Notes under the pieces: model-generated
Database searches by the model: none
Seen by the model: the letters and a program-made list of their open reading frames with translations, nothing else
Told to the model about the DNA's origin: nothing
Source of the DNA: Halobellus sp. LT62
GTDB taxonomy: Archaea; Halobacteriota; Halobacteria; Halobacteriales; Haloferacaceae
Direction: 5' to 3'
NCBI RefSeq assembly: GCF_037031285.1
Contig: NZ_JAYEZO010000001.1
Location: 868,001-932,000, forward strand
DNA length: 64,000 bases
Program-made: the position numbers and the translations under genes
Shown: positions 53,251 through 61,041 of the stretch, one piece after another
Layout: every line of letters begins with the position of its first letter
Position numbering within the stretch: the first letter of the stretch is position 1

Positions 53251-54837
53251 TCAGTACGCAACATCAAACTCATAGAACGTCTGTAGAATATCGAAAAGAA
53301 TCATAATGGACATTCCCCATTGGGAATTGCGATATGGGAGATGACCGTGAGAAATCTTGTTTCGTACATTCTGCCCCGATAAATCCGCGTACCAGTATTT
53401 CATATACGCTATCCAGTCTTCGTCGACATCGTCTTCAATCTGATAAAGCAAACCACTAAGCGATCTCCTCTTCAATTCGCCAGTCTCAGAATTGAGTTGG
53501 AGTATGCTTTTATTATTTCGAGACATTAATTTTCTTAGAACAGCTTCTAATTGTGGCATTCCGATGTGGGTTGCCGCAACTGGGTTATGGTCAAATAGAT
53601 GAATAATGAAGTCAGTCAGGTATGCGAGATTATCGCTAGATAACTCGTCCCGTCTGTTGAACAGAAGGAAGAAATCGCCTTCATAAATGAGCCCTCGGTT
53701 TTGCAACCGATAATATACTGACTGACGGAGATTCTGTGTCATCTGGACCATTCCGCCATAACTCTGTGGGCGGTCCCCACTTGCCTCATCCTGCGAGTAA
53801 GACCCACCCTCTCGTGTAATCGTTCGAGTTTGAATTATATTAGTGATACTTCCTGCAGAGATGTCTCTAGCAGTTTCGATACTTGGTTTGAAGACGTCGT
53901 GATTGATGAGCCAGAGTATCGCACCAACTGTGTTTGACTCGGATTTACGCTTTTGAAATCTGTCAATGATCTCTTCTATGGCTTCGTCAAGTTCAGATAT
54001 ATCTTCTTCAGATGGCTCGTAGGCGAGTTCAGCCATTTGATTAATATTCTTTTTGTTACCATCGAGATATTCATGTTCCCATTCTACCCGCTGCGGATCA
54101 TCAATCCATTCGATACACTCTATAATTGCTTCATGAGCGAATGTAGCACGCTGAGAATGTTGATCCCTCTCTTTGTGGAACTCGATTTGCTTCTCGTATG
54201 AGTCAATGATCGCTCCCCGTGCAGGTTTAACGTCTAGATCGTTTGTATCCCGTCGAATCTGAAGGTTTCGTCGCCATAGATGTCGGTAATCGTTATAGCC
54301 GTTTGCTCGGATTGCCTTGTCTGCTTGCGACTCTGTATATCGCAGGATGGTTTCTATGGTATCTCTTTCTTGGATTGAGTTGAGACTCTCAATTATTACG
54401 TCAAGAATTTCAAAGATTGGTCCTATCGGTATCGAATCTTCCTTCTCAGTGAGAAAGCCAGCCGCTTCACTAATCGCATCTTGTAATTCCTCAGTATGAT
54501 TGAGCTGATCCAATAGCCTAATTCGCTCTTCAATGACCTTTGGGGCGATTCTCTCCCAATTCTCGTCAAGTGCCAGTTCAACGCTTTCCCTAAGACTTAC
54601 TATGGCGAGTTCAGCTCCCCCTTCGTAATCCTCGATTTCTTCCCAGCGTGATAATCCATCAAGAAAATTAAGGAGTGGATGATCTCTCTCAAGTTCGTGA
54701 ATTTCGTCCCGAATTTTACGTGGTGACCGTCCCCATTCTCCGCGTAATTCTCTAAGAGTGCCGTTGAACACGGTACCGAATCTGGATTCAGTCGACCCGT
54801 GTTCTAGTAGTGATTCCAATTCATCTCCGAGGCGCAT
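53251..54837 (-). CDS. DUF4209-like protein with a HEPN-type motif
   Basis: A 528-residue, mainly helical protein. The C-terminal 110 residues match the DUF4209 style: a helical region with DFFLLFNRRDELSS and, near residue 492, GQNVRNKISHGHL. RNKISH is an R-N-x3-H motif as found in HEPN ribonucleases and in the RN-x3-HG signature of this family. The N-terminal 400 residues contain many amphipathic helices of helical-repeat type (LESLLEHG, then RLLDQLNHTEELQDAI). It is the last gene of the island before attR and is AT-rich. A defence effector that cuts RNA is an inference from the motif. Confidence 0.65.
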   Translation of the reverse strand: MRLGDELESLLEHGSTESRFGTVFNGTLRELRGEWGRSPRKIRDEIHELERDHPLLNFLDGLSRWEEIEDYEGGAELAIVSLRESVELALDENWERIAPKVIEERIRLLDQLNHTEELQDAISEAAGFLTEKEDSIPIGPIFEILDVIIESLNSIQERDTIETILRYTESQADKAIRANGYNDYRHLWRRNLQIRRDTNDLDVKPARGAIIDSYEKQIEFHKERDQHSQRATFAHEAIIECIEWIDDPQRVEWEHEYLDGNKKNINQMAELAYEPSEEDISELDEAIEEIIDRFQKRKSESNTVGAILWLINHDVFKPSIETARDISAGSITNIIQTRTITREGGSYSQDEASGDRPQSYGGMVQMTQNLRQSVYYRLQNRGLIYEGDFFLLFNRRDELSSDNLAYLTDFIIHLFDHNPVAATHIGMPQLEAVLRKLMSRNNKSILQLNSETGELKRRSLSGLLYQIEDDVDEDWIAYMKYWYADLSGQNVRNKISHGHLPYRNSQWGMSIMILFDILQTFYEFDVAY

Positions 54838-55423: not shown

Positions 55424-57292
55424 ATGAACAATAGCGACGGAGAGATACTACTCAGCGCTACTCTCGGAAGGAACGTTCCAGCCGAAAGTGAACACTTGTA
55501 CCTCGGTGAGACGCAGATCCGTTACCAAAGTGGAGAAGGAGAATCGAATTCGATCGAGATTCCGTATGGAGATATCTCCGCGGTTCAGGTCAACGAAATC
55601 GACGCTGAACAGGGGTTCGACCGGCTCGCCTCCGGGTTCTTATTGGGGGGCGTGATGTTGCTGTTTCTGTCGTACTTTTATTCGACAGTAGGCCAGAGTA
55701 TGATCTCCTCCTCGGTTCTCTCTGTCCTGTATATTAGCACCCTGCTCTCGTTCCCGGCTGCTGCAGCGATGTACTTCGTCCCGAGCACCGTCTCACGGGA
55801 ACTCGAGGTCGTCACTCAAACCGATCTGTTTCGTTTTTACGTTCGAGAACAGAGCGATGGGCTCGAAGAACTAGTGACGGAGTTACAGCGGGTTCGGCAC
55901 CGGGCTGAACCACCTCGTACCGATAGAGCGAGTGCGGGGGTAGCCAGCGGAGCAACGGTCGATACGAGACTCGAATCGCTTCGCGGAGATATCGAGACGG
56001 CGACCCGGCAGATGGAGAATGAGCGCTTCGAGGAAGCACTCGAGCAGTTATCGATTGTCGAAGACGCACTCTCGGAAATCGAATCGTCCGCGTCTCGTCA
56101 TCTCACTCCGGAACACAAAAAAGAACTATCGACAATGAAAGCGGAGACGAAGGGAATCATTCAACGAACGGAGCGGGAGAAACAAGAAGCGAGAGCGTGG
56201 CAGGCGGTTGATTCGGTGCAAGAGCAACTCGAAGCGGCACACGAGCGGATCGCAGCCGAAGAGGAGTTAGAACGGGTTCAACGCGATCTCAACGAACTCG
56301 AAGCACGCAGTTCCTCGATAGTGGAGACGGCCGAGCGGACCGATCACAAACAGTTACTGGAGGAGGCGACGGCTCTCGGTCGGACAGCCGAGAGAAAACG
56401 CGAGTCGGTGATAGAAACGCGGAAAACCCGAAACATCCCGCAGCACGTCCCGGCGTGTGTTGAGCGTTCGATCACGTACGGTGACATCACGGAGTACGAA
56501 CGAATCGGTGCGGGCGGCAACGCGGATGTCCACAGGGCGGCGTTCGCTGCAGATGGCGAGGAAACGAGTATCGCAGTCAAGAAGCCTCGAATACGTGGGA
56601 CACTACACACGGCTGCGGTCGAGCGTATAATGGACGAAGCGGAGACGTGGGAGCAGCTCGACGGTCACACTCATATCGTTACCCTCGTCTCCTACGGGAG
56701 CACTCCGATACCGTGGCTCGCAATGGAGTACCTCGACGGCGGCCACCTCGGAGAACGAGCACCGCAGATGGACTTCCCGCAATCGCTCTGGACCGCGATT
56801 GCCGTGACGAGTGCGGTCAGACACGCACATCGCAAGGGGGTCGCACATCTGGATCTGAAACCAGAGAACGTTCTCTTTCACTCCATCGACGACGCGTGGG
56901 ACGCTCCGAAAGTCGCAGACTGGGGACTCTCGAAACACCTCCTCACACACTCTAATACTGTCGAAGGTTTCTCCCCGACGTACGCCGCACCGGAGCAGTT
57001 TGACGATTCGTTCGGCTCAACTGACGATTTCACCGATATCTATCAGCTCGGTGCCGTCTTTTATGAACTATTCACCGGTCGGCCGCCGTTCGACGGAGAG
57101 CCGGCCGAGGTAATGAAGCACGTGCTAGACGACACACCCGAGCCACCGAGCAGTGTTGCTGCGGTCCCGACACAGGTAGATGATATCGTGCTCACGGCTC
57201 TACGAAAAGAGAAGGCAGAGCGGTACGACGATATCCTCTATCTCCGGGATGATCTTCAAGCAGTGTACGACGGCCATTTCCGACGTCAGTGA
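55424..57292 (+). CDS. Membrane-linked serine/threonine protein kinase
   Basis: A 622-residue protein. Residues 1-65 are beta-rich and PH-like. Two hydrophobic helices (about 70-115) anchor it. Residues about 180-340 are coiled-coil, and about 355-620 form a eukaryotic-type kinase domain. Key residues are present: the glycine loop GAGGNADV, the lysine in IAVKKP, the catalytic loop HLDLKPEN near residue 474 (HxD form), DWG in place of DFG near 499, and a YAAPEQFDD activation segment with the FTDIYQLGAVFYELFTGRPPF region. It is convergent with, and four bases from, a PP2C phosphatase gene that ends an operon with FHA-like, AAA and ESCRT-III-like genes. It probably phosphorylates members of that set. 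Confidence 0.92.
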   Translation: MNNSDGEILLSATLGRNVPAESEHLYLGETQIRYQSGEGESNSIEIPYGDISAVQVNEIDAEQGFDRLASGFLLGGVMLLFLSYFYSTVGQSMISSSVLSVLYISTLLSFPAAAAMYFVPSTVSRELEVVTQTDLFRFYVREQSDGLEELVTELQRVRHRAEPPRTDRASAGVASGATVDTRLESLRGDIETATRQMENERFEEALEQLSIVEDALSEIESSASRHLTPEHKKELSTMKAETKGIIQRTEREKQEARAWQAVDSVQEQLEAAHERIAAEEELERVQRDLNELEARSSSIVETAERTDHKQLLEEATALGRTAERKRESVIETRKTRNIPQHVPACVERSITYGDITEYERIGAGGNADVHRAAFAADGEETSIAVKKPRIRGTLHTAAVERIMDEAETWEQLDGHTHIVTLVSYGSTPIPWLAMEYLDGGHLGERAPQMDFPQSLWTAIAVTSAVRHAHRKGVAHLDLKPENVLFHSIDDAWDAPKVADWGLSKHLLTHSNTVEGFSPTYAAPEQFDDSFGSTDDFTDIYQLGAVFYELFTGRPPFDGEPAEVMKHVLDDTPEPPSSVAAVPTQVDDIVLTALRKEKAERYDDILYLRDDLQAVYDGHFRRQ

Positions 57293-57295
57293 GGA

Positions 57296-58096
57296 TTATC
57301 GCACGGCGACGACGACGCTGATGTTGTCACTTCCGCCGTTCTCGTTCGCGCGCTCGACGAGCCGCTCCGTGATCGTCGCGGGATCGTCGGCCGCGCCCAC
57401 GATCTCCTTGATCGCCCCATCCGAGAGTTCCTCGGTCAGCCCGTCACTGCAGAGTAACAGCGTCCCCCCGACGTCGACAGTGTCGGTGTCGGGATTGATT
57501 TCGCTGCCCGGGCCGAGTGACTGCGTGATCACGTTTCGCTGCGGATGGTCGCGCGCTTCCGCCGGAGTGAGGGTCCCGCTCTCCACGAGTTCTTGGACGA
57601 GTGAGTGATCGACGGTCAGCTGATCGACGTCATCGCTCGAAACGTGATAGGCCCGGCTATCGCCGATGTTCACGAGCGTAGCCGTCTGTCCTTCGAGGAG
57701 TGCGGCGACGAGCGTCGTTCCCATATTGTCGAGGCTCGAACCTGACGCCGCGGCCGCTTCGAGTTCCGCGTTGGCCTCCGCAGCGGCGTATCGAAGGAGC
57801 GTTTCGCGGTTGCAGTCGCTGTCAGCGGGAGTATCGGTGTCCCCGTCGAGTTCGTCTGTCGCGAGACCGGCTCTCAGCGCTGATTCGAACGACGACAGCG
57901 CCGTGGCGCTCGCTATCTCGCCGGACTGGTGCCCGCCCATCCCGTCCGCGACGGCGAGCAAGTCGCTATCGTCCGTCAACGACGTCGCGAGCACGGCGTC
58001 TTCGTTCGTCTCTCGCGTCTCGCCGACATCGCTTCGTGCGTGAATCTCTCCGCCCCGTGCGGTCTCCGTCGTGTGGTCGTTTCCGGTGGGGGTCAT
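57296..58096 (-). CDS. PP2C-family protein phosphatase
   Basis: A 266-residue Mn/Mg-dependent serine/threonine phosphatase. The metal-binding motifs are visible: RETNEDAVL, LLAVADGMGGHQSGE, NIGDSRAYHV, LLLCSDGLTEEL and GGSDNISVVVAVR. It is the last gene of the operon, 7 bases after the FHA-like gene, and faces the kinase gene tail to tail. It should reverse the action of that kinase. A kinase-PP2C-FHA set of this sort is known in bacteria as the control module of type VI secretion; here it is attached to a Vps4-like ATPase instead. Confidence 0.94.
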   Translation of the reverse strand: MTPTGNDHTTETARGGEIHARSDVGETRETNEDAVLATSLTDDSDLLAVADGMGGHQSGEIASATALSSFESALRAGLATDELDGDTDTPADSDCNRETLLRYAAAEANAELEAAAASGSSLDNMGTTLVAALLEGQTATLVNIGDSRAYHVSSDDVDQLTVDHSLVQELVESGTLTPAEARDHPQRNVITQSLGPGSEINPDTDTVDVGGTLLLCSDGLTEELSDGAIKEIVGAADDPATITERLVERANENGGSDNISVVVAVR

Positions 58097-58103
58097 ACGG
58101 TGA

Positions 58104-58838
58104 TTAAGACTGCGAGTACAGTCGCTCGGCGCGGTGAGCGATCAGGCCGAGCTCGTCGTTCCACTGATCGTCCAAGTCGGTCCCGCGGAGCGCGCTCTGT
58201 GAGACCTTCTGATCCAACCGGTCGACGATCGCGTTGAGGTCGTCTTTGAACGTGGCGTAGGCGTCGCTGTCGAGCGGATGTTCCGCGGTGAACGTCTGCA
58301 GTTCGCTCGCGTATTTCAGGCACTCGTTCGGCGACTCCTGCCGGGACTTCCGAAGGTTGTCGGCGACCGATTGAACGTACGACGCGGGCGAAACGCCCTC
58401 CATCAGCGACTCGGAGTTCTCGTTCGTCAGTCCTAGCTCTTCGAGTTCCGTCTTCGAGAGCGTCTTTCCGCTGTGCTCACGCTCGACGGTGACTCTGAAT
58501 GTCGTGTTGTACCCCACTTTGACCGTCGCGTCCTGCGTGAGTCGCTCGGACTCGCCCGTCTGGAGATCCCGCTTCAATACGCCAGTGTCGATACGCACGG
58601 CGTTCGAGTTATGCTGATTGGTGACTTCGATGGCGTCATCGTGCGGGACGAACGTGATCGGTGCCTTGCCGTTGGCGCGTCGGGAGACGGTCATATCGCG
58701 CACTCCGAGTTCGAAATCGCCGTTTGAGGTTGCTGCGAGAATGTCGCTTTCGGAGCGGAAGACGCCGACCGGTTCTTCCAACACGACCCGACGGACGGTG
58801 TCGCTATCGCCGTCGATCGGTGCCAAGTGACCCTGCAT
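58104..58838 (-). CDS. FHA-like domain protein
   Basis: A 244-residue protein. Residues about 20-105 read like an FHA phosphothreonine-binding domain: GVFRSESDILA, FELGVRDMTVSRRANG (the conserved SR), then EVTNQHNSNAVRI (the N-rich loop) and ESERLTQDATVKVGYNTTFRVTVE. Residues about 110-240 are helical. The start was set at the ATG two bases after the AAA gene's stop codon; upstream in-frame codons belong to a shadow of that gene. Its place between the ATPase and the phosphatase suggests that it reads a phosphorylated partner of the kinase. The FHA call rests on motif reading and would need a profile search. Confidence 0.6.
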   Translation of the reverse strand: MQGHLAPIDGDSDTVRRVVLEEPVGVFRSESDILAATSNGDFELGVRDMTVSRRANGKAPITFVPHDDAIEVTNQHNSNAVRIDTGVLKRDLQTGESERLTQDATVKVGYNTTFRVTVEREHSGKTLSKTELEELGLTNENSESLMEGVSPASYVQSVADNLRKSRQESPNECLKYASELQTFTAEHPLDSDAYATFKDDLNAIVDRLDQKVSQSALRGTDLDDQWNDELGLIAHRAERLYSQS

Positions 58839-58839
58839 C

Positions 58840-60018
58840 TCACCCGTTCCAGTTCTCCAAACTGGACGCCGTTTCGTCGATTGCGGATTCGAGGTGTTCC
58901 TGTGAAATCCGACGGATCTCGTCGACGTCCCGCGACTCTTTGAGCGCTTTCCGCGCTGCGTTCGCGGCGATGATCTCGAGATCGCTCGAGGAGTACCCCT
59001 CAGTGAGCGCTTTGATTTCATCCCAGTCGATAGACTCGGTGAGCACCGGGCGATTCCGGAGGTGAACGCGGAGGACCGCGGCGCGGGCCGTCGGGTCCGG
59101 CGGCGGGACTTCGATCCGCTCGTCGAACCGCCGCCACGCGGCCCCGTCGATGTCGTCGGGACGGTTCGTCGCAGCAACGACGACAACCTCCTCGCCCTTG
59201 ATCTCGGACATCTCCGTGAGGAACTGCGTGATCATCTGGCTCTCGCTCATCGTTTTTTGCGCACCGCCGCTGCGCTGGGCCGCGATGGCGTCGATCTCGT
59301 CGATGAACAGCAGGCACGGCTGGTTCGCCCGTGCGACCTCGAACAGTTCGGCCACGTTGCCGGCGGATTCCCCGACTAATGAACTCGTGAGATCGGCCGC
59401 GCGCGCCTCGATGAAATTGTAGCCGAGCCGCCCCGCAAGCGCCTGCGTGATGTACGTTTTTCCGGTCCCGGGCGGTCCGTAAAGCAGGACTCCGTTCACC
59501 ACGCCGAGGTCGTACTCTCGATACAGTTCCGGCCGGTTGAGCGGGTCGATCACCTTGTCCTTGAGCGACTCTTTCAGCTCGGTCATCCCCCCGACGTCGT
59601 CGAAATCCATCTCGGGGGGTGCCTGCAGGTACTCGTCGGGATCGGGGGCGTCGTCGTCGTCAGCATCCGACTCGGAAGCGCGATGGGATCCGCCTCCGGA
59701 CCCGCTTCGATCGTCCCCTCCAGAGCCCGTTTTGCTGGTGCTCGTCGCTTCCTCGTCCGATTCTACACTGTCGACGCTGCCGTGTTGGTCCAGTGCCGCG
59801 GCCGCCTGTTCGAGGTTGTCCGCGAGGTTCTCACGCTCCGTGCTGAGACGGTCGCTCGATTCGAGCGTCGCGATCTGTCGCAGGACGTCGGCACACTCGC
59901 GGTAGTATTTCGCGGCCTTCGACGGGTCGTCGTTCTCGCGGGCTTGGTCCGCGATCGCGCGATACTGCTCGTAGTCGTCTTCGAGGAGGTCCTTGTGGGC
60001 CCCGTCTTCGAGTGACAT
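58840..60018 (-). CDS. MIT-like plus AAA ATPase (Vps4/Cdc48-type)
   Basis: A 392-residue protein. Residues about 14-78 form a helical hairpin bundle with the MIT pattern (AIADQARENDDPSKAAKYYR, then ECADVLRQIA and ENLADNLEQAAAAL). After a low-complexity acidic linker comes one AAA domain: DVGGMTELKESLKDKVIDPL, Walker A GPPGTGKT (181-188), Walker B LLFIDEID (239-241), sensor 1 VAATNRPDDID and RRFDERIEVPPPD, close to the form found in Vps4/katanin/spastin. A C-terminal helical lid follows; no separate beta domain is obvious. It stands 18 bases after the ESCRT-III-like gene. The pair MIT-AAA plus basic/acidic helical filament protein is the core of ESCRT-III/Vps4 systems. Confidence 0.8.
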   Translation of the reverse strand: MSLEDGAHKDLLEDDYEQYRAIADQARENDDPSKAAKYYRECADVLRQIATLESSDRLSTERENLADNLEQAAAALDQHGSVDSVESDEEATSTSKTGSGGDDRSGSGGGSHRASESDADDDDAPDPDEYLQAPPEMDFDDVGGMTELKESLKDKVIDPLNRPELYREYDLGVVNGVLLYGPPGTGKTYITQALAGRLGYNFIEARAADLTSSLVGESAGNVAELFEVARANQPCLLFIDEIDAIAAQRSGGAQKTMSESQMITQFLTEMSEIKGEEVVVVAATNRPDDIDGAAWRRFDERIEVPPPDPTARAAVLRVHLRNRPVLTESIDWDEIKALTEGYSSSDLEIIAANAARKALKESRDVDEIRRISQEHLESAIDETASSLENWNG

Positions 60019-60036
60019 AAGCGAGTCCTCCAGCCG

Positions 60037-60720
60037 TTATAACCCGAGTTGATTCTCCGCCTCGTCGAGGTCGTCCATCTCTATGTCGGCTGACACCGCC
60101 TCCTCCTCTTCGACCTGTATCTCCGCGTCCAGATCGACCTGCTCTTCGGACATATTTCCGGCCGCCATCTCCTCCATCTTCTCCAACTCGGCGTCGCCAC
60201 CTTCGACGGACATATCGCTGGACATAATGTCGAGATCCAGACTCTGTTGGACCTCCTGCATCACGTCCATATCGAGCTCGAACTGGATCATCTGATCCAT
60301 CATTTCTTCTTGGACTTGGTCGGCGTTGATATCGTTGTTCTGGAGGATCCCCTCGATGTTCGACTGGTTCGCGCCGTCGTGCATCTCCATCAGCTCGCGA
60401 GCGCCTTCGACGGTGACTACCGTCCCGAGCACGAGGCTGTTCTTCTTGTACTGCTGCTTTTTGATCTTGTACTTCTTCTTGGCCATCTTGGCCTTCTGGG
60501 CGATCCGCTGGCGATCCAGTGAATCGGCCTCAGAGCCCTTTTGAAGCAGCTGTTTGTACTCCTGGGCGTAGTTATCCATCTCCTTTTGGATACCTTGGCG
60601 CTGGCGCTTCAGCCGAATTTTATCCTCTTTGAGGTCTTGGTTGCTGTACATGCTCTCATCGAGCAGCGATTCCGTGTCTGCGGTACCGAAGTAGTTCTGC
60701 AGTGGTTCGCGAAGTTGCAT
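60037..60720 (-). CDS. ESCRT-III/Snf7-like helical protein (candidate)
   Basis: A 227-residue helical protein with a strongly split charge. Residues about 28-95 are basic and form a long helical hairpin (EDKIRLKRQRQGIQKEMDNY, then QKAKMAKKKYKIKKQQYKK). From about 115 onward the protein is acidic, with many Met/Gln/Glu helices (ADQVQEEMMDQMIQFELDMD) and an acidic tail ending EMDDLDEAENQLGL. Basic N-terminal hairpin, acidic regulatory tail and partnership with an MIT-AAA protein are the hallmarks of ESCRT-III proteins. No family call is certain; a generic coiled-coil adaptor is the alternative. Confidence 0.6.
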   Translation of the reverse strand: MQLREPLQNYFGTADTESLLDESMYSNQDLKEDKIRLKRQRQGIQKEMDNYAQEYKQLLQKGSEADSLDRQRIAQKAKMAKKKYKIKKQQYKKNSLVLGTVVTVEGARELMEMHDGANQSNIEGILQNNDINADQVQEEMMDQMIQFELDMDVMQEVQQSLDLDIMSSDMSVEGGDAELEKMEEMAAGNMSEEQVDLDAEIQVEEEEAVSADIEMDDLDEAENQLGL

Positions 60721-60759
60721 TGTTGGTGAACGTAGTGGATGGTCGGCTAACGGTGCGCC

Positions 60760-61041
60760 TCAGAGTTCGGGCTCGATCGCCATTACGGTCGTGACGACGC
60801 CGAGAACAGCGCCCATCGCGGCCGCGAGGACGAGCAGCTTCATCCCTTGGACGGTGACTGTGAGCAGTTGCTCGCCGTATGTCGCTTGGGCGTAAATTAC
60901 GACCCCGCCGAGTCCGATGCCGCCGAACGCGCCGACGGCGAACTGCCGTTCCATCACGACGAAAACGGCGAGCACAAGCAGCGCTCCGAGGATCCCGTTC
61001 AGGATGAACACCCCACCGAGTTCTATTGCTCCAATTGACAT
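60760..61041 (-). CDS. Small membrane protein, first gene of the ESCRT-like operon
   Basis: A 93-residue protein with three hydrophobic segments (about 7-30, 35-50 and 63-90), rich in Gly, Ala and Val, and an acidic C-terminus. It starts the operon 39 bases before the ESCRT-III-like gene. A TATA-like box (61076-61083) lies about 40 bases before its ATG. It may anchor or recruit the filament protein to the membrane. No family is recognised. Confidence 0.65.
   Translation of the reverse strand: MSIGAIELGGVFILNGILGALLVLAVFVVMERQFAVGAFGGIGLGGVVIYAQATYGEQLLTVTVQGMKLLVLAAAMGAVLGVVTTVMAIEPEL

Follow-up and report, generated by a model that had tools for sequence, protein, structure and literature searches.

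Archaeal counterparts of the eukaryotic endosomal sorting complex required for transport (ESCRT) were surveyed by Makarova et al. 2024 (mBio, PMC10936438), and they include the closest described relatives of a gene cluster that we analyzed in Halobellus sp. LT62. The cluster lies in a window of 64,000 nt (NZ_JAYEZO010000001.1, 868,001–932,000, forward strand; positions below are those of the window unless a locus number precedes them), and its best reading is an ESCRT/Vps4 locus combined with phospho-signaling. As set out in the main text of that survey, the Halo_FHA clade consists of Vps4, ESCRT-III, and the FHA family arCOG13166, whose C-terminus is helical and weakly CdvA-like. Some Halo_FHA loci add arCOG09748, arCOG08177, Ser/Thr kinases, and phosphatases; arCOG09748 is described there as a helical N-terminus followed by a coiled coil, a globular domain, and a C-terminal winged helix. 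The same text suggests phosphorylated proteins as the cargo and, for the complex ESCRT systems of FtsZ-bearing archaea, a role in vesicle formation and protein sorting.

Judged on composition, the window locus is very likely a member of the Halo_FHA clade. It shares with the clade, as the main text presents it, a haloarchaeal host, Vps4, a likely ESCRT-III, an FHA protein with a helical C-terminus, a probable arCOG09748-like protein, a kinase, and a phosphatase. It differs in lacking an arCOG08177-like gene, none being found in the window or the genome (the 170–190 aa gene of relatives was equated with arCOG08177 by position and description, not accession), and in carrying a conserved 93-aa membrane protein that goes unmentioned in the main text of PMC10936438. 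The main clade of archaeal ESCRT systems also has Vps4, ESCRT-III, and arCOG09748, often with membrane kinases and a phosphatase, but its description in the main text omits FHA and always includes arCOG08177. Crenarchaeal CdvABC likewise pairs ESCRT-III with an MIT-AAA ATPase, but that system drives division, whereas here the host carries FtsZ-family genes and the locus is patchily distributed. The earlier note on this DNA, made from the letters alone, was aware of no described haloarchaeal system of this composition, a suggestion contradicted by the published account of Halo_FHA (PMC10936438, main text); a literature search by arCOG names found only Makarova et al. 2024.

We searched for the family of the 227-aa protein in 148 genomes of the host's family and, by profile, in 391 genomes of its class, and found it in 15 and 24 genomes, respectively. 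Neighborhoods of up to 20 kb per locus (L numbers) were then compared by gene calling, with six-frame profile scans as a check. The same gene order is found again in haloarchaea of patchy distribution, at protein identities of roughly 27–66%, and the retention of gene order across many genomes at such divergence excludes chance clustering. The earlier note had proposed a gene-order survey as a check, and co-occurrence was indeed seen in many haloarchaea; named members among the matches listed are Haloglomus irregulare, Halonotius aquaticus, Haloquadratum walsbyi J07HQW2, and Halobaculum saliterrae. In the close loci, one strand carries a divergent coiled-coil protein of 520–720 aa, often with the 170–190 aa gene upstream, while the opposite strand carries, after a membrane protein that is present in most, the 227-aa protein and then the MIT-AAA ATPase, followed by FHA (in most) and PP2C and kinases (in many). 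A PP2C ortholog directly follows the FHA gene in L029, L032, L040, and L070 and lies nearby in L028, L038, and L071; locus L033 is broken by a run of N. The 170–190 aa gene had no match in the window or the host genome with the same profile that detects it in many relatives, and a search of the PDB for a Cas2 likeness of its product returned no match. A search of a plasmid collection gave no match. We conclude that the locus is genuine and conserved.

Table 1 Genes of the ESCRT-type cluster in the Halobellus sp. LT62 window, with the evidence for each assignment
Product	Position	Strand	Evidence
Membrane-linked Ser/Thr kinase, 622 aa	55424-57292	+	Pfam Pkinase 2.4e-29; transmembrane and motif scan
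PP2C-type phosphatase, 266 aa	57296-58096	-	Pfam PP2C_2 1.2e-16
FHA protein, 244 aa	58104-58838	-	AlphaFold (AF2) model, Foldseek, VIA
Vps4-like MIT-AAA ATPase, 392 aa	58840-60018	-	Pfam AAA 9.2e-39; MIT profile matches
Probable ESCRT-III subunit, 227 aa	60037-60720	-	AF2, VIA, charge profile, conserved place directly upstream of ATPase
Small membrane protein, 93 aa, ~3 transmembrane segments, candidate membrane anchor	60760-61041	-	Family alignment, hydrophobicity
Divergent coiled-coil protein, 665 aa	61520-63517	+	Conserved in all intact close loci

All six open reading frames of the earlier note were confirmed in position, strand, and spacing, the minus-strand gaps from the membrane-protein gene to the PP2C gene being 39, 18, 1, and 7 bases. 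The kinase and PP2C genes converge with 3 bases between them. That gene list omitted the core divergent 665-aa gene, and the true unit, which includes it, thus exceeds 55424-61041. It probably also takes in two kinases just outside the window: past the membrane-protein gene the order is the 665-aa gene, a 265-aa gene, and then two PQQ-type beta-propeller Ser/Thr kinases on the same contig (L090:14497-16878 and L090:16875-19154), so that the signaling genes of the locus extend beyond the window.

The ATPase has an MIT-like domain at residues ~10–77, an acidic linker, and a single AAA domain with intact Walker A (GPPGTGKT) and Walker B motifs. Pfam MIT matched the N-terminal region in 8/10 family members (best E 1.5e-4), the window protein itself falling below Pfam's own cut-off, and the best PDB matches of the N-terminal profile were CdvC/Vps4 MIT domains (CdvC MIT, E 0.002). 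TPR models and chains also matched this region, mostly more weakly, and the sequence comparisons thus bear out the expectation of the earlier note that the N-terminus would be MIT-like. A whole-chain PDB ranking was led by Cdc48/p97, whose two AAA domains both add to the score, and this ranking was not used for classification. The ATPases of close-type loci share 60–79% AAA-domain identity with the window protein and, in a tree of locus ATPases and host AAA paralogs, cluster apart from the other AAA paralogs of the same genome. At L076:5558-10987 and L039:9467-15610, a single ATPase gene is flanked by two ESCRT-III-like paralogs.

The 227-aa protein encoded directly upstream is likely ESCRT-III, given its predicted hairpin, its structural matches, its charge profile, and the MIT-ATPase directly downstream. 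The AF2 model, built on a five-sequence alignment, has a short N-terminal helix, helices at 27–64 and 67–114 that form the helix 1-2 hairpin anticipated in the earlier note, and several short helices. Foldseek and VIA rows were rich in Asgard ESCRT-IIIB, Snf7, CHMP1B, Vipp1, and PspA; ~20/50 VIA rows were ESCRT-III, Vipp1, or PspA, and all Foldseek matches had E > 0.5. The first half (residues 1–115) is net basic in nearly all close members and the second half very acidic in all, with 23 K+R against 18 D+E in the first half of the window protein and 1 K+R against 35 D+E in the second. Such a basic first half and acidic second half are typical of ESCRT-III proteins. Many members have TLLD (TxxD) just before helix 1, where the window protein and that of L029 have SLLD instead. 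We considered whether loss of TLLD was tied to the absence of FHA and rejected this, as the pattern concerned one clade only and the window protein itself has SLLD. The relative of the 227-aa protein at L074:8923-10131 and L075:8873-10081 is 402 aa long, extended at the C-terminus by an additional region, and has no ATPase, FHA, membrane, or 665-aa partner within the fetched 20 kb.

An FHA domain was not detected in the 244-aa protein by sequence profile, and the fold was revealed by structure alone. The AF2 model (predicted local distance difference test [pLDDT] score 79.9) has a beta-sandwich at ~1–120 and a four-helix bundle at ~151–243; the top 27 Foldseek rows were FHA almost without exception, and VIA comparisons with FHA domains gave Z up to 11.3 over ~95 residues. 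By this model the protein has the FHA fold, as the earlier note had proposed, and is probably of the arCOG13166 type. In the family alignment, G25, R28, S52, R53, N74, and N79 are invariant or near-invariant, and these occupy the positions where phosphothreonine-binding residues are expected. In one VIA row (Z 10.4), the helical bundle is similar to the phosphotransferase domain of CheA, a likeness that may reflect only a common arrangement. Two FHA-family genes per locus were found at L071:4225-7641, L072:4000-7307, and L073:5178-14907, one of those in L071 with a zinc ribbon; L071 also encodes a Band 7/SPFH protein, which recalls the SPFH protein reported for Meth_adaptin systems. The kinase has an N-terminal region with hydrophobic segments at ~68–86 and ~98–116, which would link it to the membrane, a helical middle, and a C-terminal Hanks-type kinase domain with intact catalytic motifs (VKK, HLDLKxxN, DWG, and APE). 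The kinase and PP2C calls of the earlier note both stood (Table 1).

The least described piece of the locus is the 93-aa protein, which may be a membrane anchor. Its family occurs in 17/391 genomes of the class, mostly adjoining ESCRT-III, and 15 of these 17 are among the 24 genomes with the 227-aa family (hypergeometric P ~4e-19, uncorrected for shared ancestry). The gene stands directly upstream of ESCRT-III even in the very divergent loci L077, L078, L081, and L089. L088 has it too, with a 236-aa neighbor before the ATPase gene that the 227-aa profile does not recognize. In L085–L087, several Ser/Thr kinases cluster round the small membrane protein gene without a directly adjoining ESCRT-III gene. 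The 665-aa protein is conserved in every intact close locus (40–52% identity) and has a helical N-terminal region, a coiled coil at ~190–390, and a conserved C-terminal region. A profile search with its family gave essentially coiled-coil matches, and a match to the winged-helix model GMT-wHTH was weak (E 0.32); it is probably an arCOG09748-type adaptor (winged-helix, ESCRT-II-like).

Taken together, the genes probably form a functional ESCRT-type locus with phospho-signaling, and we favor, with moderate confidence, a Halo_FHA-type ESCRT system with an accessory role, which would work as follows. An N-terminal amphipathic segment would let the ESCRT-III-like protein polymerize against the inner side of the membrane, where the 93-aa membrane protein would hold or nucleate it. 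A Vps4-like hexamer would use its MIT domain to bind the acidic tail at the C-terminus of the ESCRT-III-like protein, and its AAA ring would extract subunits, leading to remodeling or vesicle budding; the 665-aa protein would serve as the ESCRT-II-like adaptor. Phosphorylation of threonines, either on cargo or on a component of the system, would fall to the membrane kinase and to the propeller kinases nearby; the FHA protein would read this mark and couple it to the filament, and PP2C would reset it. We infer the polymerization, membrane scission, protein contacts, and phosphorylation targets of this scheme. Cell division is unlikely to be the main role, since the host carries a PspA of its own besides four tubulin/FtsZ-family genes, and since the 227-aa family is present in only 24/391 genomes.

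Several observations weigh against this reading. The AF2 model of the 227-aa protein has a mean pLDDT of 57.6, the hairpin being confident and the remainder of low confidence, and VIA Z values near 8 are common for helical hairpins and long helices. The 227-aa family profile found nothing relevant in the PDB or Pfam and no link to ESCRT-III, and its profile-profile comparison with haloarchaeal PspA gave probabilities of 3–7%, no better than a coiled-coil control. Thus, the ESCRT-III claim of the earlier note held for the hairpin, the structural matches, and the acidic tail but found no match by sequence profile. Loci L035–L037 retain the membrane protein, ESCRT-III, the ATPase, and the 665-aa protein, yet neither FHA nor PP2C turned up within the 20 kb fetched for each, and no kinase lies directly in the cluster, the sole kinase gene seen being in L035, outside the cluster; phospho-signaling is therefore not obligatory. 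Our literature search found no experimental study on any of these proteins.

The lack of a sequence link in the PDB, Pfam, and PspA comparisons is also what would be seen if the 227-aa protein had no relation to ESCRT-III and were a coiled-coil substrate or adaptor for an MIT-AAA unfoldase, and helical hairpins give moderate structural matches to a wide range of unrelated proteins. We consider this quite improbable in view of the over-representation of the ESCRT-III superfamily among the VIA rows, the charge profile, the MIT partner encoded next to it on the downstream side, and the assignment of ESCRT-III published for loci with the same gene set (PMC10936438, main text). A different possibility, put forward in the earlier note and held here only tentatively, is that kinase, PP2C, and FHA switch the machine itself, so that assembly or recruitment would depend on phosphorylation of ESCRT-III or Vps4, in the way that such trios switch type VI secretion. 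The comparison with type VI secretion is an analogy only, resting on the same signaling trio; secretion genes were not noticed beside the locus, although no dedicated search for type VI structural genes was made. In many loci the three genes are found within the cluster or next to it, and the TLLD before helix 1 in many members has the TxxD form preferred by some FHA domains. However, FHA domains normally require phosphothreonine, the window and L029 have SLLD despite their FHA genes, and some loci exist without the trio. We think it unlikely that the 93-aa protein anchors and nucleates filaments of ESCRT-III as a core component not reported before and, at the same time, that the kinase/phosphatase/FHA set gates the filament machine and not only cargo.

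A PspA-like module for membrane repair or envelope stress, sensed by membrane and beta-propeller kinases and without cargo sorting, would suit the propeller-bearing kinases that adjoin several loci, including those just past the window, as well as the histidine kinase adjoining L025, and a single superfamily unites ESCRT-III with PspA (PMC8281802). This too we regard as unlikely, since the genome already has PspA and an FHA adaptor and 665-aa protein are better suited to cargo or adaptor roles. Least probable is a conflict or antiviral system. The patchy distribution would fit, and the kinase-rich loci sometimes lie beside large Ser/Thr kinase-UvrD-type helicase proteins (L033:2050-6276, L034:12883-17409, and L040:8846-12814); PADLOC reported matches to defense-system kinase models and IetA, and a PDC-S39 candidate-defense match at 53251-54837 (528 aa, C-terminal DUF4209). 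The PADLOC matches of the cluster, however, track generic kinase and AAA domains, and no conserved nuclease, protease, or toxin effector was present in the cluster across the compared loci. A Pfam scan of the neighboring genes revealed no subtilase, the IetS partner in IetAS defense.

The Halobellus locus is compact and, it seems, intact, and it exemplifies an archaeal ESCRT type known from prediction. Through it one could ask if the control of ESCRT by phosphorylation that is known in eukaryotes also exists in archaea. The locus further draws attention to a small membrane protein that accompanies ESCRT-III across very divergent haloarchaeal loci.

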